Positions 10,360-46,430 of a stretch of 46,670 nt of DNA are shown piece by piece. Source of the stretch: a virus. The translations under genes and the position numbers were made by a program. The stretch spans positions 1 to 46,670 of the IMG/VR virus record IMGVR_UViG_3300042509_000353. One strand, written 5' to 3'. How positions within the stretch are numbered: the first letter of the stretch is position 1; each line of letters opens with the position of its first letter. Under the pieces are notes generated by a model. It ran no database searches. It was not told the DNA's origin and worked only from the letters and a program-made list of their open reading frames with translations.

Positions 10360-11271
10360 ATGGCTATTTCACGCGCACAACTACTTAAAGAACTCCTCCC
10401 GGGCCTGAACGCTTTGTTTGGTTTGGAGTACGCTCGTTACGGCGAAGAGCACAAAGAACTCTACGAAACAGAGAAATCTGAGCGTTCTTTTGAAGAAGAG
10501 ACAAAACTGTCTGGTTTCTCTGCTGCACCTGTTAAGAGTGAGGGCTCTGCCATCGCTTATGACAATGCACAGGAAGCTTTCACAGCACGTTACAACCACG
10601 AGACTATTGCTCTGGGCTTCTCCATCACGGAAGAAGCTGTGGAAGATAACTTGTATGACAGCCTGTCTGCTCGTTACACCAAAGCCTTGGCTCGCGCTAT
10701 GTCTTACACCAAGCAGGTTAAAGCTGCAAACGTTATCAACAATGGTTTCTCTGCCGCTTATCCCGGTGGCGACGGCGTTGCTTTGTTTAGCACTGCACAC
10801 CCCTTGGTCAACGGCGCTACTAACAGCAACCGTCCATCAACAAACGCTGATTTGAACGAAACTTCTCTTGAGAATGCCGTTATTCAAATCGCCGCTTGGA
10901 CTGATGAGCGCGGTCTGTTGATCGCTGCCAAGCCACGTAAGTTGATTGTTCCACCTGCACTGATGTTCGTTGCAACTCGTTTGCTTGAGACTTCTTTGCG
11001 TGTTGGCACAACCGACAACGACATTAACGCGCTCAAGAACAACGGTTCTATCCCTGAAGGCTACACCGTTAACCACTTCTTGACCGACAATAATGCTTGG
11101 TTCTTGTGTACAGATGTACCTAACGGTTTGAAGCACTTCGAACGCACTCCATTGCAAAACTCAATGGATGGGGATTTTGATACCGGCAACGTCCGTTACA
11201 AGGCCCGTGAGCGTTACAGCTTTGGCTGGTCTGACCCTCTGGGTGTCTTCGGTTCACCCGGTACATCCTGA
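10360..11271 (+). CDS. Major capsid protein
   Basis: The 303-residue product follows AAGGAG. Its composition is that of an HK97-fold coat protein: an N-terminal helix (LLKELLPGLNALFGLEYARY), an E-loop-like segment, a spine-helix region around SARYTKALARAMSYTKQVKA, and a P-domain/A-domain half containing GDGVALFSTAHPLVNGATNS and LIAAKPRKLIVPPALMFVAT, strings characteristic of Mu-type/T4-unrelated coat proteins in aquatic phages. No N-terminal protease-cleaved delta domain is obvious. It is followed by an intrinsic terminator, as expected for a highly expressed gene. Confidence 0.88.
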   Translation: MAISRAQLLKELLPGLNALFGLEYARYGEEHKELYETEKSERSFEEETKLSGFSAAPVKSEGSAIAYDNAQEAFTARYNHETIALGFSITEEAVEDNLYDSLSARYTKALARAMSYTKQVKAANVINNGFSAAYPGGDGVALFSTAHPLVNGATNSNRPSTNADLNETSLENAVIQIAAWTDERGLLIAAKPRKLIVPPALMFVATRLLETSLRVGTTDNDINALKNNGSIPEGYTVNHFLTDNNAWFLCTDVPNGLKHFERTPLQNSMDGDFDTGNVRYKARERYSFGWSDPLGVFGSPGTS

Positions 11272-11293: not shown

Positions 11294-11318
11294 AAAAGGG
11301 CCCCGAAGGGCCCTTTTT
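11294..11318 (+). terminator. Intrinsic terminator after the major capsid gene
   Basis: AAAAGGGCCC (11294-11303) and GGGCCCTTTT flank a CGAA tetraloop (11304-11307), followed by TTTTTCTTT. This is a strong canonical terminator 22 bases after the capsid stop. It separates the head operon from the inserted endonuclease gene. Confidence 0.85.
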
Positions 11319-11327
11319 CTTTGGGTG

Positions 11328-11355
11328 TTGATTTTTGTTTTGGTTGTGGTATATT
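11328..11355 (+). promoter_or_regulatory. Promoter of the HNH endonuclease gene
   Basis: TTGATT (11328-11333), a 16-bp spacer and TATATT (11350-11355) form a sigma70-type promoter, with TGG before the -10 making it extended. The TTGTGGTATAnT string matches the leftward promoter near 2457. The predicted start, about 11361-11363, falls inside the hairpin at 11357-11374. Confidence 0.6.
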
Positions 11356-11356
11356 A

Positions 11357-11374
11357 CCTGTGTCGTAACACAGG
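11357..11374 (+). promoter_or_regulatory. Hairpin overlapping the endonuclease ribosome site
   Basis: CCTGTGT (11357-11363) pairs with ACACAGG (11368-11374) around CGTA. The 3' arm includes the first bases of the AGGAG ribosome site (11372-11376). Transcripts entering from upstream would hide this site, while transcripts starting near 11362 would lack the 5' arm and leave it free. Confidence 0.55.
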
Positions 11375-11381
11375 AGCTAAC

Positions 11382-11975
11382 GTGGACACTACCAACTTGC
11401 CCAAGACCCGCGCCGAAGCTAAAGCTACTGGTGCCAAGTATTATTTCACTGGACAGCCTTGCAAGCACGGGCACATAGTTGCACGCAAAACCAAAGGCGC
11501 GTGTGTAGAATGTTTAAAAGTTGAGTGGGAAAAAGGCAGTAGCAACCGCGCGGAGTACTTCAAGCAGTACAACAAGTCAGATGCAGGTGGAGAAGCTAAA
11601 CAGCGGTATTATGAGAAAAATAGGGCACAGGTTATTGCCCGCGCACAAGCACGTCCCACAACAGAAAAACAGGCGTACAAGAATAAGTACAAGCAAAGTA
11701 ACCCTGACTTGTACAAAACACTTACCAGTTTTCGCCGTCGTCGGTTTCGTGATGCCACCCCGCCGTGGCTGACGCACAAACAAAAATCTGAAATACGCCA
11801 GCTTTATCAGATAGCCATTACCATGTCCAAGACCACTGGCGAACAATACGTGGTCGACCACATCGTGCCATTGCAATCGCATGAAGTCTGTGGCTTGCAT
11901 GTCCCGTGGAACCTGCGCGTCATCACGCAAGAAGAAAATTTAAAGAAATCAAACAAACTTGTTGCGCCCAAGTAA
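11382..11975 (+). CDS. HNH (homing-type) endonuclease
   Basis: I take GTG 11382 as the start because AGGAG lies five bases upstream; an in-frame TTG at 11325 would place the promoter inside the gene. The 197-residue product has an N-terminal zinc-finger-like region (C27, H31, C41, C44), a long basic helical linker, and an HNH core: D159-H160 in VVDHIVPL, H173 in GLHVPWNL, N177, N186 and N191. Such free-standing nucleases cut phage genes lacking the insert and spread by repair. It sits between the capsid terminator and the next structural operon with its own promoter, which marks it as a mobile insertion. Confidence 0.88.
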   Translation: MDTTNLPKTRAEAKATGAKYYFTGQPCKHGHIVARKTKGACVECLKVEWEKGSSNRAEYFKQYNKSDAGGEAKQRYYEKNRAQVIARAQARPTTEKQAYKNKYKQSNPDLYKTLTSFRRRRFRDATPPWLTHKQKSEIRQLYQIAITMSKTTGEQYVVDHIVPLQSHEVCGLHVPWNLRVITQEENLKKSNKLVAPK

Positions 11976-11999: not shown

Positions 12000-12067
12000 C
12001 CGGGATCACCGGTGCATCAAACAGTCCCGGCTGACGACATACAGATTGATGCACTTAACTTGTATGT
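12000..12067 (+). promoter_or_regulatory. Structured 5' leader: two hairpins with complementary loops
   Basis: Hairpin 1: CCGGGA (12000-12005) pairs with TCCCGG (12025-12030). Hairpin 2: ACATACA (12037-12043) pairs with TGTATGT (12061-12067). GTGCATCAA in loop 1 (12012-12020) is perfectly complementary to TTGATGCAC in loop 2 (12046-12054), allowing a nine-pair kissing interaction. The AAGGA ribosome site (12068-12072) follows hairpin 2 immediately, and the ATG is at 12079. Translation control or mRNA stabilisation is inferred. It does not match a riboswitch I know. Confidence 0.6.
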
Positions 12068-12078
12068 AAGGAAACATC

Positions 12079-12576
12079 ATGGGATTCGCATCACACCTTG
12101 GCCCTTGGCTGCTCGGCACTGTTAAAAACACTACTGGCACAACTGCTGGCTCTATTCGCAACATGGGCGCAACTACTGTTGCCCAAACTTATACGGCTCC
12201 TGCTTCTGTTATTTTGGCAAGCCCCACAGCACAACAGATGTTTGTGCTTCCTGCTGGCGCTAAGATTCTTCGCTTTGGCCTTGAAGTAAATGTTGCCTTG
12301 ACTGGCGCTACTAACTGCGGCGTTACCATTGGCAGTTCTGGCACGGCTAACCTGTACATGACAACAGTCAACACGGGCACTTCAGCGGTTCAGACTTCTC
12401 CAGCTACCATCGCAGCGGCAACTTCAGGTGTTTATGACAGCATCGGCACAACAGACGCAATCATCTTTGGTACGTTTACCGCAGCCACTGCTGACGCTAC
12501 TGCTGGTACGATTACTGTTACTGTTGAGTACATCGTGCGCGATTCTGATGGTGCTGCTAACCCTAGCCAAGTCTGA
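12079..12576 (+). CDS. Hypothetical beta-rich virion protein
   Basis: The 165-residue product follows AAGGAAACATC and is the first gene behind the structured leader. It is Thr/Ala/Gly-rich with few charges, predicted beta-sandwich-like (VILASPTAQQMFVLPAGAKI, AGTITVTVEYIVRDSDGA). That profile suits a decoration or fibre-associated protein. A nearby gene of similar style follows. No family is recognised, and a virion location is inferred from composition and operon. Confidence 0.7.
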   Translation: MGFASHLGPWLLGTVKNTTGTTAGSIRNMGATTVAQTYTAPASVILASPTAQQMFVLPAGAKILRFGLEVNVALTGATNCGVTIGSSGTANLYMTTVNTGTSAVQTSPATIAAATSGVYDSIGTTDAIIFGTFTAATADATAGTITVTVEYIVRDSDGAANPSQV

Positions 12577-37946: not shown

Positions 37947-40900
37947 ATGCCACAAGCACTCCCTTTACCAGACGGTAGATTTGTAACCATTAGGGAGGGC
38001 GAAACTCCTGCACAAACGTGGGAGCGGGCACAGCGCATGTATCCGGAAGCCTTTGCTTCCAAAGCTCCTGAGAAAAAAGAAACCACTGTTGGCGGTCAAG
38101 CCAAAGAGTTCTTCAAAGGTCTAGCCCCCGGCGCTATTGGGTTGGTAGAACAAGCCGGTGTTGGTATCTCGGCTTTGTTGCCAGACGAACAAGAAAAAGC
38201 TGCGCAGCGATCAATCAAAGAAACCGCCGCGTCCCTTAAAAAACCGTTTGAAGCAGCGCCGGGTTACGAAGACACGGTGGCGCGGAAGTTTGGTGAAGCT
38301 ACAGGCTCTATTGCTCCTTTCTTGGCCGCAGGGCCGTTTGGTTTAGCAGGGCGCGGGATCATGGCTGCGTTAGGTTCTGGAGCAGGAGCCGGTTATCAAG
38401 TAGAGAAGTCAGCCGCAGAGGGCGCAACTGAAGGACAGCAGACGGCTTCAACCGCTCTTGGTGCCGCTGTTGGTATTAGCGAGATGTTTGCGCCTGCTCG
38501 TATTTTGAGTCGCCTTGGCCAACCTGTAGCTCAAGGCGTTGTTTCTTACATTAAACGTGCATTGATGGCCGGTGGTGAAGAAGCCGCGCAGGAAGCTGCG
38601 TCTCAAGCTGCGCAAAACCTGATCTCAAAAGGTATATACAAAGCAGAACAAGAAATTATTGAAGGCGTTGGTGAGTCCGCTGCTTATGGCGGCGGAGTTG
38701 GCGCGTTAGCTCAGGGCTTGCTTGACTTAGCGCTCGGTCGTCGTGCCAAGGGTGGGCCTAAACCCCAAGACGAATATGCCACGCTTCGTGCCGAGGAAGA
38801 GCAACGCCTTGAAGAAGAGCGTCAGCGTAAGACAAAGCCTGAGTACGCACAAGAAGTTGTGCAGAAGTACGACGCGCTGGCTAAACAAAAGCAAGACTTG
38901 ATTGCGCAGTTTAAGAAAGTAGCAAAAGACTCTCCCACATACGATGCGGACAAAGCGTTTAACACGCAGATCAATGCACAGCTTCGTGAGTTGACAAAAG
39001 AAATTACGCCGCTTTCTGACGACTACTACAAAGCCAAAGGCATGCTTGGCCAGATGGCAGAGCAAGAGCGTGTTGCCAAGCTCACGCCTCAGGAGTATGC
39101 GTTTGGCCTGCCGCCTGAGACAGAAGAACAGAAGAAAGAGCTGGAGCCTGAGTTGTATGAGCAACAGATTGCTACACCTCCCAAGCCACCGGCTGAACTA
39201 ACCCCTCGTCAACAAGTTGCTGAGTACGCTGACCAACGCATTGCGTTGGCTAACGACCAGATGAATACGGCGGCTAGTTACACCCCCAAGTACAAGTCTG
39301 AAGCTAAGAAAGACTACGTGGACTATTTGATGCAGGACTTTACCAAAGCCCAGCAGCTTGTACAAACACGCCCAACATTGACAGGTTTGCCTGAAGGTCT
39401 GCGTAGCGAAGAAATATACGACGTACTTAAAACACGCGTAGCCGCTGAAGCCAAGACCGCTATTAAACAACGCGAGCAAGAGCAGGCGTTTGACCAACAG
39501 AAACTTACACAGCCTAAAGACCAGATGGCTATGTTCAAGGAGTCTGAAGCGCAGGTGGAAGAGCAAAAGAAAAACGTTGAGCCTAACTTTGATTACCTTG
39601 ACCCAATGTTTGAGAAGGCGCTTGATCGAGAGCCCGTCATCAAGGTCAGCGATAAGGTCAAGCCCATACCTCGCGGCGAACAGATCCGAGAGAAGCTGGA
39701 TTCATTGATTGCAGAAGTAGACAAGGCTGACCAAGACTACCGCACAGCCCGCTACGCGATGCCATCCCAAGGTAAGCGCGGTGCGCCAGAGCGTGCCGCA
39801 GCAATGGAAGCTTTGACCAAAGGCAAGACAGCCCTTGCCAAGATCGACCAGCTTAGTAAAGAAGGTGGTGACTACGCTCGTGAAGTTGTTGCCGCACGCC
39901 GTCAACAGCAAGAGGCCATGGCCAAGCTGAGCGACATCACCGAGCAACTGCGCACCGAACAAACACTTGGTAAAGAAACTGAACGAGTACGTAATCCAGA
40001 TACCGGAGAAATGGAAACGCAACTTGTTGGTTTTGGCAAAGGGGTATCTGCCTCCACAGAACAGTCGTTGACCAACCAAGCTGAACAAGTACGCGGTCAG
40101 ATTATTTCTTCAGCACTACAAGAAGCCGCGTTGAACCGCCGTGCCGCAGGCCAACCTGCCATCACTCAAGACGAAGCAATCAAAGCTGCATCTAATATAT
40201 ACGACTCGATTAACGAGTGGCTTGCCCGTGCAAAACAAAAACCTGTACGCGCTGAGTACGAAGAAGTTATTGTTGAGCCTGCACAGATGCGGGCAAACAA
40301 AGTTGTGCGTGCCGCAAAAACAGAACGCCGCGTAGTTAAAGAAGGTGTATCAAGCATGCAGCCACAAGAAGTGGCGCAGTTTCAAGAACGCATTAAAGAA
40401 GCAATGCGGGTGCTTTACGAGAAGCCTGACGTCAAACCCACTCGTGTAGAAACTGGTGTACTTAAACGCCAGTTTAAAGAAACGGAAGCTAAGAAGACTG
40501 CCGAAGCTCGCGGTGAAACAGCGACCACTCTTCGCGGTGAACTGCGCCGCCGTACAGAATTTGTACGCAACAAGATGTCTAAGATGGGTGCAATGCGTCC
40601 GGGTGCCCGTGATGCCCTCAATGCTGCCGCTGACTTGATGGATAAGAACCAAGCTACGCGTGAGATTCTGGACAAGGTCGAGCCCGTAGTAGACGCCATC
40701 GTTGCAGGGCGCGACGTCAAGCAGGTGGACATTCAAGCTATCAAGGATGCTATCCGCGCTACTGAGACTGTGCCGCAAGGACAGAAGGCGTTGTTCCCGG
40801 AGGCGCAAGAAGAGTTAGGCTACATCCGCGCAACACCAAAGAACTTTGCCAACTCTCCACGCATGCGCCCTGTGTGGGAAGCGCTGGATAAAGCGCGGGC

Positions 40901-43900
40901 GCTGTTCAAGAAGTCTGAACAAGAACGTTTAGTGAGAAAAGCAACTGTAGCCAAACGCATGCAGTTCCTTGAAAGGGTTAAAGAACGTGGCGACAGCATC
41001 ATTGCAGACACGCAATACTTTTGGAAAGACACGAGCCGCTATTCTGACGAAGCGTTAGCAAAAGTGTTTGTGGGTATGCCAGAGGCAGGCACAACTCCAG
41101 AAGAAAAAGTTATTCTGGAAAAGTACCGCACGCTTCAGCCCATGTCTATGCAGGAACAACAGATTGCCGAACGCTTGGTAAGAGAATTTAAGACAGAACA
41201 CCTGCCCAAGTACAGAAAGCAAATTGATGAAGCCATGAGGTTGTTGGCGGACGGACGCCGTCTTGACGACACAGACAATCAGTTGTTGGCGTTTATGCAA
41301 GACACCAATACAAATGTTCGCGCAGCAGCAAAAGCTTTGAACGATAGATTGCAACCGCTTCGTACGGCTATTAAACAAGTTAAGAAAGCTATGCAAGGTT
41401 CAGTGGTCATATCTGCTGAACAGAAAGCAATGCTTGATTCCGAAAAAGGAATTAAACAACAACGAGATAAATATCAGCAAGCGGTTGAAAAAGCAGTTAC
41501 CAATGCTCGCCGGGAGATGGACGACGCAATGGCGTTCCTGCTTGACCCCGTAGTTAGTAAAGCCAGTGCCGATCTTGAAAAAGCTAAGACAACGCTTGAT
41601 AAAGAACAAGCAGAACTAGACAAAATTAAGAAACGCTTTGATAGCGTGTTGGCACAAGAAGGAGGTGCTAACCGCACCGAGCTTGCCACGTACGAGTTGT
41701 TCCGTTACGCAGAAAAGAAGGGCGTCATTGACGACCTCAAGAAACAAGTTGAAGCACAGGAAACAGAACTAGGCGATTTAGTTAACGAGCGTTCAACTGA
41801 ACACGACGGCGGTTACGCCGTAGCACAAGCCATGCTTGATGGCAACGTCAAGATGGAACGTCAGTATCTAGAAATGCTGGAAGCCAACCTCGCCACTATG
41901 CGCGGGGAGAGCGTCCTTGATAAAGCCAGCTCCTATCCGTTTGCCTACCAGCAAGCCAAGAAGAACGCTGACGCGCAAAGAGCAACGCTTAAAGCTGCTG
42001 AGAAACGTGCCACGGAATTTAAAGAAGTCGCTAAAACAGAAACACAGAAGCTAGAAGACTTCTGGAAAGATAAGCTTGGCGGCGAAGGCATCAAGCGCGA
42101 AGAAGGCAAGGTCGAGCGCATTCAGACTACTGCTGAAAAAGAAGCAGAAGTGTTGCGTAACAAAGCAATGGAAGCGCTGGATAAAGAAGAAGACGCGTTT
42201 ATTCGCACTGCACGCAAAGAAGCCGCTTTTAATACGTACGTTGATGAAGTAACTGGCTTGATGCTAGAAGCTGAAAGCATCCCCGGCCCTGATGACCTCA
42301 GTGAGTTAAAGAAAATTATCAACGACGAAACGCAGTCAGACAACACGCGCATTATGGCTATGGCTAAAGTTGGCGTGTTGCAGTCTATGGAATCTGTGGA
42401 AGCGCAATACGAAGTAGACCAAGAAGGCAAGCCTCGCAGAAAACAGAAAGCCGCAACAACACTAAGCTCTGTTGGTCAAGCCAAAGGCAAACCTTTGCGC
42501 ACGGGCAATGTGCCTGCTTCTCAAAGTATTAAGACATTGTTGTCGCCTGAGAAAAAGCGTGAGCGTGTGAAAGACACGTTGGACTTAGGCGCGTTTGTTT
42601 CTTCTGACGACGTGCGCGGCATCTTTGGCGGTGGTCGTACATCTGTTGACTTTAGCGAAGCTCGTACACAGTTTGACCTTGACTTTGATGCTATGTCTTT
42701 GGGCCCCACGTTTACATACAAGGGCACACCTGTAGCAGAGTTGACAGACGCAACTGAGCGCAGTTTGCTTAGCGATGTGCATGGCATGTATATGCGTGTG
42801 GCTGGTGTTAATCAAACGCATGCTAGTAAGTTTCAAGCCGCAAAGAGCCGTATCTTGGTAGGCTTGAAGTCAGACGCAGGTTTGTACAAGAACAGCAACC
42901 CAACGCTTGCTAGCCGCATTCAGAAACGAATTGACTTCTTAGAAGGAATAACTGCGGATGACGTTGTCATCACTGTTCCCGGCGGTGGTTTCCGTGGCGA
43001 AAAGACACCGCCTACTTTGGCTCCGGCCAAACTAAAAGCAGAAAAACCGTTAACAGTTTCTGACTCTCAGGCAAACAGTAAGTTTAATCAACTTGGCGTT
43101 AAACTGGCCACAGACATTGGGTACAACGGATTAAGCTTTGCCCAAGCCGCTGAGTATGGCGCGAAGCGTGCAAAGAATGCAAACCAAAAAGCGCTGTTTG
43201 AGCGCATGCAAGAAGTGTTTGCGGATGCAAAGCCAGACAAGTACAGCGGTCGAGTGTTTGCATCTGAGACGGCTATGCACAGCTATATGGGAAGCGCGGC
43301 AGGCTACTACGTCCCTAGCCTAGACATGGTGATTGTTAGCGAGGCCAAGCTTGACCCAATGCAAACGCTTTTGCACGAACTTGTTCATGCCGCATCTGTA
43401 AAGATGTTGACCCAAGACAAGGCATTAGACAATCGCGTTACTGTGCTACGCGAGCGTGTTGAGCAGTGGTCTTTCACGCCAGAAGGCGAAGCTTGGTTAG
43501 AAAAGAATTTTCGTCAGAAAACCTTTGACGGTATGCCCTACTTCCCAGACTTGTACGGCCTGACAAACAACAAAGAGTTCCTTGCAGAGACTTTTGCAAA
43601 CCCTGAGTTCCAAAAGATGCTGGCTGAGATTCCGTCGGACATGCCGCGCAAGAGTTTGCTGACACGTTTGGTAGAGTTCTTGAGCCGCTCATTTAGCATG
43701 CCTGCTAAGGCAATGCAGTCTTTGTTTGCCGAGAGCATGGTGCTGACAGAAGAAATCATGCAGCGCACAAAGACGGAAATCTACGAAGCGGGTGTTGACC
43801 CACGTTCAGACTCTCTTCCAGCGCCTTTGATTGCATACGACAATCCTGAGTTCAATAACGTACGCGCAACCATGAAAAAAGTTGTGGCGCAGGACAAGAC

Positions 43901-46430
43901 TTGGTGGGACTCCATCAAAGCCAACACATCCGGCCTTGCGTTTGAGACACAGCTTGTTGATCGTTTTGCAGGCTTTGAGCGTTTGGCCAAGTACATGGAG
44001 CCACTCAAAGGCACCCAGATGTTGTACTACCTCCGTTCGTACGACCAGCGCATGAACATTGTGTCTAAGGCTGTGTCTGATGGAGCGCCCTCAATTCGCG
44101 AGATAAAGCGTGATGATGGCCGTGTTGAGCGACTTGTTGAGACAACAGGCGGTGCCAGTATTGCCAGTGTTGTGAACAAGTTGAAAGAGGCTAATCAGTA
44201 CATTGGTAACGGCGAAGCTGTCAATCAAGTGTTTACAACTTACATGGCGGCTATCCGTGCCAAGAACAAAGGTATTGATACGCTCAACTTTGGCACCGAC
44301 AAGGACGGCAAACCTGTGCTGACGCAGGCTATGCTTGATGAAGTTACTGCTTTGGTTAACAAGAACGCACCGCTGAAGAAGGTGTTTGAGGAAGCCCGCA
44401 CAGAGTACAACAAGTACAATCGCGACCTTTTGGACTTTGTAGCCAGCACTGGCGCTTTGTCTAAAGCGCTTGTCAAGAAGCTTGTGGCAGAGGACGACTA
44501 CATCCCGTTCTATCGTGAGCGCAAAGGTGTCGTCGAGTTGGTGATCGGCAACGAGAACCCCATCCGCATTGGAAGTATTGCGGAGCAACCTTACCTAGAC
44601 AAGTTAGTGGGAGGCGACACAGCCATCATCGACTTCATGACCAGCTCAGTGCAGAATACCAACATGTTGGTGGACATGGGTATGCGCAACCTTGCAACCA
44701 AGAACGCAGTCATGGAACTGGTCGACCTGAAGGCCGCTACGCTTGTAAAGAAAGCTGACGGCTCAGACGTTGTTAAGTTTAAAGTAGACGGGGATGACCG
44801 TTACGCAATCGTTGCTACTGAGAAGGTGATGATTGGCAACAAGGAGTTTGAGACGGGCGTGCCTGCCGACTTGCTGGTTAAGGGCATGGAGGGTATCCCC
44901 ACGCAGATGCCGTTCCTGTTCCGTGTCATGGCTATGCCTGCGCAAGTCTTACGTAAAGCTATTACGCTGAGTCCCTTGTACATGGCCAAGCAGTTGTTCC
45001 GTGACTCATTAGCGGCTCCTATCCTGTCTGGCGCTGACTTCACCCCTATTGTTGGTGCACTACGCGAGCTCAACGGCACGGCTAAAGAGAAGCTAGAGAA
45101 GCGCGGTATTGTGGGCGGGCAGTACTTCCGTGGCACAAGCGAAGACTTGTCCATGATCTTGCGCGAGATTTCGGACGGTCAGCCCGGTTGGATGAAAGCT
45201 TTGGGGAGGTTTGAAGCAATGGGTATGGAGGCTGACGCGCTTACACGTCGTGCCCAGTACAACAGCTACATTGAGCAAGGCTTGTCTGAAATGGAAGCAA
45301 CACTCATGGCTCTTGAGTCCATGAACTTTAACAAGCGCGGAGCTTCTCCAAGCGTGCATGTACTCAACTCGTTGATTCCTTTCTTCAACGCACAGATTCA
45401 AGGTCTGAACGTGATGTACAAGGCGATGTCTGGCAAGATGCCTTTCAACGACCAACTGCGCATCCGTGAAAAGATGTTGCAGCGAGGCGGCATGATGGCG
45501 GCGGCTACGTTTGCCTACGCCGTGATGATGGAGGACGACGAAGCCTACAAGAACGCTACACCAGACCAGAAGTACGGCAACTGGTTTATACGTCTGCCCG
45601 GTTTGGACGAGCCCGTCAAAGTGCCTGTGCCGTTTGAGATAGGCTACATCTTCAAGGCTATCCCTGAGGCGCTGTACAACACCATGACCACTGAGCATGG
45701 CGGAGAAGAAGCAGTCAAGGCGTTCAAGCAGATCTTGTTGCAGACAGTCCCCGGCGGTTCGTCGTATGGTATACCGCAAGCGGCCAAGCCTTTGATCGAG
45801 GTAGGTCTTGGTAAGTCGTTCTACACAGGCCGCGACATTCTGTCAGCACGCGAGAAACAGTTGTTGCCTGAAGAACAGTACCGCGTCAACACAACCGACG
45901 CCGCCAAGCTGGTTGGTAGTACCTTGGGTATATCTCCAATTAAGATTGAGGCGCTTGTCAGTGGCTATACAGGAACGATGGGTCTGGCTTTCTTGCAGGC
46001 TATCAGCCTTGGCGTACCGGCTAAAGAAACCCCAGAGCGTGCGGTCAGACGCCTGTCTGAGTACCCAATCTTAGGCGGTGCGTTTCAGCCCAATGACGCA
46101 GGCGGCATCATCAACTCTGTGTACGAACGCATGAACGAGTATGTTCAAGTCAAGTCTACTGTCGACAGCTTGTTGAAAGACGGCAAAGTGCAAGAAGCTC
46201 AAGCCTTGATGACCAAGCGCGGCACGGACTACATGCAGGCAGAGCTTGCCAACACGTTCAAAGCAAACATGAATATGTTGACTCAAGCAGAGCGTGCGGT
46301 TGCTTCCTCTACTATGACGCCTGCAGAAAAGCGTAAACAGCTTGACGAGATCAGGAAGATGAAGATTGGGCTTGCAAATACGACGCGGGAAATTTCCGAT
46401 AAAACCATACGCCTAGTTGGTGGTTCTTAA
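37947..46430 (+). CDS. Giant 2827-residue internal/polyvalent protein with a zinc metalloprotease motif
   Basis: The product opens LPLPDGRFVTIREGETPAQT, followed by an Ala/Gly-rich membrane-active segment (residues ~90-260), then over 1200 residues of charged coiled coil. At residues 1810-1814 is H-E-L-V-H (LLHELVHAAS); 63 residues on, NKEFLAETFANPEFQ provides E1877/E1881 as candidate third ligands. This is a zincin layout. The C-terminus (residues ~2320-2650, LIPFFNAQIQGLNVMYKAM, FIRLPGLDEPVKVPVPFEIG) resembles the LPD38 domain of phage polyvalent proteins. It is likely packaged and injected with the DNA to cross the envelope and perhaps cut a host or virion protein. Confidence 0.8.
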   Translation: MPQALPLPDGRFVTIREGETPAQTWERAQRMYPEAFASKAPEKKETTVGGQAKEFFKGLAPGAIGLVEQAGVGISALLPDEQEKAAQRSIKETAASLKKPFEAAPGYEDTVARKFGEATGSIAPFLAAGPFGLAGRGIMAALGSGAGAGYQVEKSAAEGATEGQQTASTALGAAVGISEMFAPARILSRLGQPVAQGVVSYIKRALMAGGEEAAQEAASQAAQNLISKGIYKAEQEIIEGVGESAAYGGGVGALAQGLLDLALGRRAKGGPKPQDEYATLRAEEEQRLEEERQRKTKPEYAQEVVQKYDALAKQKQDLIAQFKKVAKDSPTYDADKAFNTQINAQLRELTKEITPLSDDYYKAKGMLGQMAEQERVAKLTPQEYAFGLPPETEEQKKELEPELYEQQIATPPKPPAELTPRQQVAEYADQRIALANDQMNTAASYTPKYKSEAKKDYVDYLMQDFTKAQQLVQTRPTLTGLPEGLRSEEIYDVLKTRVAAEAKTAIKQREQEQAFDQQKLTQPKDQMAMFKESEAQVEEQKKNVEPNFDYLDPMFEKALDREPVIKVSDKVKPIPRGEQIREKLDSLIAEVDKADQDYRTARYAMPSQGKRGAPERAAAMEALTKGKTALAKIDQLSKEGGDYAREVVAARRQQQEAMAKLSDITEQLRTEQTLGKETERVRNPDTGEMETQLVGFGKGVSASTEQSLTNQAEQVRGQIISSALQEAALNRRAAGQPAITQDEAIKAASNIYDSINEWLARAKQKPVRAEYEEVIVEPAQMRANKVVRAAKTERRVVKEGVSSMQPQEVAQFQERIKEAMRVLYEKPDVKPTRVETGVLKRQFKETEAKKTAEARGETATTLRGELRRRTEFVRNKMSKMGAMRPGARDALNAAADLMDKNQATREILDKVEPVVDAIVAGRDVKQVDIQAIKDAIRATETVPQGQKALFPEAQEELGYIRATPKNFANSPRMRPVWEALDKARALFKKSEQERLVRKATVAKRMQFLERVKERGDSIIADTQYFWKDTSRYSDEALAKVFVGMPEAGTTPEEKVILEKYRTLQPMSMQEQQIAERLVREFKTEHLPKYRKQIDEAMRLLADGRRLDDTDNQLLAFMQDTNTNVRAAAKALNDRLQPLRTAIKQVKKAMQGSVVISAEQKAMLDSEKGIKQQRDKYQQAVEKAVTNARREMDDAMAFLLDPVVSKASADLEKAKTTLDKEQAELDKIKKRFDSVLAQEGGANRTELATYELFRYAEKKGVIDDLKKQVEAQETELGDLVNERSTEHDGGYAVAQAMLDGNVKMERQYLEMLEANLATMRGESVLDKASSYPFAYQQAKKNADAQRATLKAAEKRATEFKEVAKTETQKLEDFWKDKLGGEGIKREEGKVERIQTTAEKEAEVLRNKAMEALDKEEDAFIRTARKEAAFNTYVDEVTGLMLEAESIPGPDDLSELKKIINDETQSDNTRIMAMAKVGVLQSMESVEAQYEVDQEGKPRRKQKAATTLSSVGQAKGKPLRTGNVPASQSIKTLLSPEKKRERVKDTLDLGAFVSSDDVRGIFGGGRTSVDFSEARTQFDLDFDAMSLGPTFTYKGTPVAELTDATERSLLSDVHGMYMRVAGVNQTHASKFQAAKSRILVGLKSDAGLYKNSNPTLASRIQKRIDFLEGITADDVVITVPGGGFRGEKTPPTLAPAKLKAEKPLTVSDSQANSKFNQLGVKLATDIGYNGLSFAQAAEYGAKRAKNANQKALFERMQEVFADAKPDKYSGRVFASETAMHSYMGSAAGYYVPSLDMVIVSEAKLDPMQTLLHELVHAASVKMLTQDKALDNRVTVLRERVEQWSFTPEGEAWLEKNFRQKTFDGMPYFPDLYGLTNNKEFLAETFANPEFQKMLAEIPSDMPRKSLLTRLVEFLSRSFSMPAKAMQSLFAESMVLTEEIMQRTKTEIYEAGVDPRSDSLPAPLIAYDNPEFNNVRATMKKVVAQDKTWWDSIKANTSGLAFETQLVDRFAGFERLAKYMEPLKGTQMLYYLRSYDQRMNIVSKAVSDGAPSIREIKRDDGRVERLVETTGGASIASVVNKLKEANQYIGNGEAVNQVFTTYMAAIRAKNKGIDTLNFGTDKDGKPVLTQAMLDEVTALVNKNAPLKKVFEEARTEYNKYNRDLLDFVASTGALSKALVKKLVAEDDYIPFYRERKGVVELVIGNENPIRIGSIAEQPYLDKLVGGDTAIIDFMTSSVQNTNMLVDMGMRNLATKNAVMELVDLKAATLVKKADGSDVVKFKVDGDDRYAIVATEKVMIGNKEFETGVPADLLVKGMEGIPTQMPFLFRVMAMPAQVLRKAITLSPLYMAKQLFRDSLAAPILSGADFTPIVGALRELNGTAKEKLEKRGIVGGQYFRGTSEDLSMILREISDGQPGWMKALGRFEAMGMEADALTRRAQYNSYIEQGLSEMEATLMALESMNFNKRGASPSVHVLNSLIPFFNAQIQGLNVMYKAMSGKMPFNDQLRIREKMLQRGGMMAAATFAYAVMMEDDEAYKNATPDQKYGNWFIRLPGLDEPVKVPVPFEIGYIFKAIPEALYNTMTTEHGGEEAVKAFKQILLQTVPGGSSYGIPQAAKPLIEVGLGKSFYTGRDILSAREKQLLPEEQYRVNTTDAAKLVGSTLGISPIKIEALVSGYTGTMGLAFLQAISLGVPAKETPERAVRRLSEYPILGGAFQPNDAGGIINSVYERMNEYVQVKSTVDSLLKDGKVQEAQALMTKRGTDYMQAELANTFKANMNMLTQAERAVASSTMTPAEKRKQLDEIRKMKIGLANTTREISDKTIRLVGGS

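Follow-up and report, generated by a model that had tools for sequence, protein, structure and literature searches.

A codon-patterned promoter element of a phage HNH endonuclease gene resembles a segment of the neighbouring capsid gene and is a candidate homing-site-like operator

The DNA analysed here is the virus record IMGVR_UViG_3300042509_000353, positions 1 to 46,670, and this whole 46,670-nt stretch is referred to as the window. An HNH-type endonuclease gene lies downstream of the major capsid protein gene, separated from it by an intrinsic terminator and a promoter (Table 1). The product of the endonuclease gene matches PHROG 1035 endonuclease VII at 1e-17, along with PHROG HNH endonucleases, and it has a DH...N...N catalytic motif, with D159, H160, N177, N186 and N191 invariant. 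The model of the protein has a pTM of 0.40, and a Foldseek search with it returned no matches with E <0.001. When named phages were compared at the DNA level, none matched the window. In the isolated phages Planktothrix phage Pag-Yong1, Phage DSL-LC04 and Pelagibacter phage HTVC023P, which have related capsid genes, no endonuclease gene separates the capsid gene from the one that follows. Elsewhere in the window, positions 37947-46430 form a single 2827-aa open reading frame, very long for a 46.7-kb record.

Endonuclease genes cluster near essential phage genes, capsid genes among them (PMC10448857). Among loci related to the window, the slot that separates the capsid gene from its downstream neighbour is filled sporadically: it holds an HNH gene, a GIY-YIG gene or other genes, or it is empty. 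In some relatives a GIY-YIG gene sits there in place of the HNH gene; the two endonucleases are unrelated, and the slot of the window is without a GIY-YIG gene. Further GIY-YIG types also occur there (loci L298 and L308), as does a small acidic protein gene with its own leader (L240, L241, L243 and L247). The post-capsid position looks like a general cargo slot.

Past the HNH gene, at 12000-12067 and before the gene at 12079, lies a conserved, apparently pseudoknotted RNA leader with three interleaved stems. It is present in most relatives, between a promoter and the post-capsid gene, and the proteins encoded downstream of it are several and dissimilar. Stems B and C carry many two-sided compensatory changes, with paired cells of 0.80-1.00 (mostly at least 0.9) against 0.53-0.83 in shuffles; stem A is nearly invariant. 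This leader has no match in Rfam.

Table 1. Coordinates of the features described for the capsid-HNH junction and the adjoining capsid gene
Feature	Position	Strand	Basis or remark
Major capsid protein gene, presumed homing target gene	10360..11271	+	Pfam Phage_capsid_4 2e-13; PHROG 371 major head protein 4e-23
Predicted GIY-YIG recognition site, codons S-M-D-G-D-F	11161..11178	-	GIY profile 24.2, next best in window 10.5
Predicted HNH recognition site, capsid codons D-F-D-T-G-N (GTTGCCGGTATCAAAATC)	11173..11190	-	16/16 specified positions; best of 1770 windows
Intrinsic terminator 3' of capsid gene	11294..11322	+	10-bp perfect stem, then T run
-35-like TTGATT	11328..11333	+	4/6 to consensus
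Extended -10, TGG TATATT	11347..11355	+	TGG 11347-11349, TATATT 11350-11355
Homing-site mimic / putative operator ATTACCTGTGTCGTAACA	11353..11370	+	Overlaps -10 and predicted start; conserved in 89 leaders
Hairpin CCTGTGT-CGTA-ACACAGG	11357..11374	+	5' arm within mimic, 3' arm overlaps Shine-Dalgarno sequence
Predicted transcription start	11362	+	Placed from the -10, 7 nt downstream
Shine-Dalgarno AGGAG	11372..11376	+	Sequence
HNH-type endonuclease gene	11382..11975	+	GTG start, 197 aa

The basic parts of the junction had been named in an earlier, sequence-only reading of this DNA, and all are present where that reading had placed them: the promoter TTGATT-16-TATATT, the GTG-start HNH gene with its AGGAG, and the terminator, given there as 11294-11318. 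The arms of the latter (11294-11303 and 11308-11317) pair perfectly and are followed by TTTTT. The promoter hexamers alone are within chance, as 5 kb contains 6 promoter-like sites against 4.6 expected. Across homologues the last two T of the -10 are kept in 96-100% of leaders, and the sequence that follows is nearly invariant.

Two protein scans returned 80 loci each; with duplicates removed, they left 90 distinct leaders, of which 89 carry the core. Conserved across these 89 orthologue leaders is an element of 16-18 nt, ATTACCNGTRTCGTAA, which contains the 5' arm of the hairpin and sits directly after or across the -10 in all core-bearing leaders. Along the element, information content follows a three-base period. 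The bases at -4, -1, 2, 5 and 8 are variable (R, N, N, R and R, in that order), and those in between are almost invariant. Overlapping coding sequence was considered as the source of this period and rejected, as the bases that vary do not fall on the third positions of the HNH frame and the leaders differ in length. The plus-strand pattern is RTT NCC NGT RTC RWA, and its reverse complement, TTY GAY ACN GGN AAY, spells the codons F-D-T-G-N. The match holds position by position, codon degeneracy included, save for a single change tolerated in the first codon.

The HNH element was scored along the aligned codons of 321 distinct capsid genes. It reaches 19.8 at D-F-D-T-G-N, with a runner-up of 7.1 (1770 windows), and 0 of 2000 column-shuffled HNH profiles match the capsid gene as well. 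The site lies about 190 bp upstream of the promoter element. Three groups of leaders taken separately all pick D-F-D-T-G-N, namely the clade of the window itself, a distant clade and a divergent form (CCTGTAACTAAGTC). Over the whole window, the best non-self match of the HNH profile is 11175-11190 on the minus strand. From the phenylalanine codon onwards, the mimic usually departs from its target. When single sequences are compared, matches as good as this one (13/16) are not rare in one genome, and the case for the mimic rests on the alignment. Within genomes, the wobble positions of the operator and the capsid site do not covary (1.53 vs 1.60 expected by permutation). This is expected in the present reading, because the enzyme would ignore third bases.

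A second conserved element is found in the GIY-YIG promoters that occupy the slot in relatives. This element, TCNCCRTCCATTG, lies between the -35 and the -10, and is the reverse complement of capsid codons N-S-M-D-G-D-F, which overlap the HNH site on the same strand. Against the capsid alignment it scores 21.8 at N-S-M-D-G-D-F, with a runner-up of 7.9; the shuffled-profile test again gives 0 of 2000. The HNH mimic, its wobble pattern, its conservation and the parallel mimic of the GIY-YIG family are established by computation.

The capsid genes themselves were compared between HNH-bearing, GIY-YIG-bearing and endonuclease-free loci by ranking 210 synonymous third positions for association with endonuclease status. 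For the HNH gene, the first-ranked third position belongs to the Gly at -1, just before D-F-D-T-G-N, and the third-ranked to the Gly at +14, inside it. For the GIY-YIG gene, ranks 2, 3, 4, 5 and 8 fall in the site window. Taken as a whole, the HNH site window shows no significant excess of status-associated columns (p 0.19). This signature fits a resistance polymorphism or co-conversion at the target site; relatedness or co-conversion can yield such third-position associations. Since kinship was uncontrolled and the HNH window falls short of significance, the capsid signature is taken as supporting evidence only.

The element also contributes to an RNA structure. Its 5' arm CCTGTGT (11357-11363) and the sequence ACACAGG (11368-11374) form a perfect 7-bp stem across the loop CGTA, and the 18-nt hairpin has a folding energy of -8.6 kcal/mol (z -4.45). 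The sequence-only reading had described this stem with a 3' arm that contains the first bases of AGGAG, as is the case. A perfect stem of at least 7 bp covering the Shine-Dalgarno sequence is found in 7/90 HNH leaders as compared to 0.1% of controls (1458 other Shine-Dalgarno-bearing genes of these phages). The accompanying proposal, that read-through RNA masks the ribosome site and internally started RNA leaves it free, holds in silico. The predicted mean unpaired probability of the Shine-Dalgarno sequence is 0.11 on read-through RNA vs 0.84 on RNA starting at 11362, the start being itself a prediction. Given that start, the stem that includes the Shine-Dalgarno sequence could form in the window fold only on longer transcripts. 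No further copy of the hairpin or of the core was found in the window, where both are single-copy. Rfam gave no family at gathering score, and nothing convincing at E up to 5.

Pairing across orthologues depends on the 5' arm. Leaders with the arm CCTGT keep five pairs in 27/47 cases vs 8.7% of control genes, and their stems span loops of different length. Leaders with the arm CCCGT, CTCGT, CCGGT or CCAGT retain a 5-pair stem in only 2/42 cases. Many orthologues thus show what the sequence-only reading had named as counting against it, a loss of pairing where the gene is kept. No sign of compensatory change was found in the non-CCTGT leaders: pairing of their 3' halves is no stronger with the native arm (-4.09 kcal/mol) than with CCTGT (-4.45 kcal/mol). 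Because pairing comes and goes with no sign of compensation, the stem is read as a feature of a lineage and not of the family. Its enrichment in CCTGT leaders means that the hairpin may nevertheless work in the lineage of the window. The GIY-YIG genes also have hairpins over their Shine-Dalgarno sequence: its unpaired probability is below 0.3 in 95% of their leaders vs 27% of control genes, and native halves pair more strongly than swapped ones (z -5). RNAalifold found no consensus fold among the GIY-YIG leaders because the stems sit in different registers, so support for these hairpins comes from the own-versus-swapped test and from accessibility. Taken together, the hairpin of the window is real but secondary and lineage-specific. 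A role as a second, translational brake on read-through RNA in the HNH lineage of the window is plausible, and we propose that such a brake is clearer in the GIY-YIG family.

These data bear on what the element is for. If its main function were to hide the ribosome site on read-through RNA, with an internal start as the bypass, the predicted accessibilities, the rarity of such stems among controls, their frequency in CCTGT leaders and the masking seen in GIY-YIG leaders would all be accounted for. The leaders with altered arms, however, lose pairing without compensation, and conservation of the 5' arm has a different cause, its match to capsid codons; this function is unlikely to be the main one. 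The I-TevI-like logic put forward in the sequence-only reading thus stands in part. The comparison is apt and the in silico behaviour fits, but pairing is lost in many orthologues, and the 5' arm, which does form the hairpin, belongs to the homing-site mimic, the main point that was missed. Conversely, the mimic may be functional and the hairpin a mere by-product, with CCTGT chancing to complement the ACAGG before the Shine-Dalgarno sequence and with no translational role. Consistent with this, ACAGGAG is present also in leaders whose 5' arm cannot fully pair (e.g. L527, L530 and L533), and the slightly better pairing of non-CCTGT 3' halves with CCTGT than with their own arm points the same way. 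Against it stand the strong excess of the stem among CCTGT leaders, the enrichment of 7-bp stems, and the precedent of such hairpins, which are known from phage homing endonuclease genes. We regard a by-product as a serious possibility, though one we lean against.

Two further explanations concern the mimic itself. The element could be a relic rather than an operator, a trace of the capsid target that insertion or co-conversion left behind, and many loci without the HNH gene do retain it. At L169, L245 and similar loci, the promoter element is kept, the HNH gene is gone and remnants of the last HNH codons remain. Core-bearing loci without the HNH gene were also considered as pristine target sites; this was rejected because at least two carry HNH remnants, and such loci are therefore better read as deletion scars. 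A relic would drift everywhere, yet the non-wobble positions are near-invariant among leaders whose proteins are only ~50-85% identical. Moreover, both elements sit in promoters, that of the GIY-YIG family between the -35 and -10 and that of the HNH family across the -10 and start. A relic is accordingly doubtful, slightly more so than a primary hairpin function. The overlap with the -10 and the start point would also suit a promoter or operator site for some other phage or host regulator, its likeness to capsid codons being coincidental. The shuffled profiles argue against coincidence in either family, as do the overlap and shared strand of the two best sites, and the element is found only once in the genome of the window. 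Such a regulator is very improbable.

The reading we favour is that of a self-repressing homing endonuclease. Judged from sequence, the HNH protein is probably a free-standing homing endonuclease that targets the capsid gene and represses itself through a homing-site-like operator, as I-TevI does. Its gene would be parked directly behind the capsid gene, with the cement-type gene following, and the protein would recognise the capsid codons D-F-D-T-G-N, tolerating synonymous third bases. Since the degenerate copy of this site spans the -10 and the start, the protein could bind this copy and so stop transcription of its own gene; binding, repression and cutting, like the start point, are what we infer. 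In the lineage of the window, the hairpin, whose 5' arm is drawn from the mimic and whose 3' arm is drawn from the Shine-Dalgarno sequence, may add a translational brake on read-through RNA. The GIY-YIG enzyme would likewise target the capsid gene and repress itself via a promoter copy. More broadly, it is likely that HNH and GIY-YIG endonucleases, as unrelated free-standing families, compete for one capsid-side slot in a large environmental phage group, each with a degenerate promoter copy of an overlapping conserved capsid segment. These copies would keep the wobble, record the recognition tolerance of the enzymes and predict their homing sites.

So far, one intron-encoded enzyme has been shown to repress itself through a homing-site-like operator, and the same has been proposed for two others. 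If the present reading is true, they are joined by two free-standing families, unrelated to each other and represented by hundreds of natural variants, which would suggest a general mode of self-limitation among selfish nucleases. A homing site could then be predicted from a codon-like conserved pattern in a non-coding promoter, with no need for biochemistry.

The closest known system is I-TevI, the intron-encoded GIY-YIG enzyme of phage T4. Its operator is identical to its own homing site at 15/20 positions and overlaps its own late promoter, leading to autorepression (PMC2988022), and a Shine-Dalgarno hairpin blocks translation of its long transcripts (PMC2988022, PMC3014915). The window gene shares with it a promoter whose predicted start lies inside a hairpin that can mask the Shine-Dalgarno sequence, and a sequence over the promoter that resembles the predicted homing site. 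In contrast to I-TevI, the window gene is free-standing, HNH/endonuclease VII-like and adjacent to a capsid gene, its hairpin is not family-wide, and it is known from sequence alone. The logic of a hairpin with an internal promoter has been published for I-TevI/II/III, segB and mobE, and RNA structures that mask the Shine-Dalgarno sequence for genes e, soc and 49 (PMC2988022, PMC3014915). The free-standing HNH gene mobE of Aeromonas phage Aeh1 and segB of T4 resemble the window gene in adjoining their presumed target gene and in having a masking hairpin; homing-site-like operators, however, are reported in the review consulted only for the three intron-encoded T4 enzymes. The wobble pattern has its counterpart in I-AniI, which tolerates substitutions at codon wobble positions of its target (PMC3943268). 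In both cases the promiscuous positions are third codon positions of the target gene; for I-AniI substituted targets were tested, whereas here the tolerance is seen in the way a non-coding promoter copy has varied during evolution.
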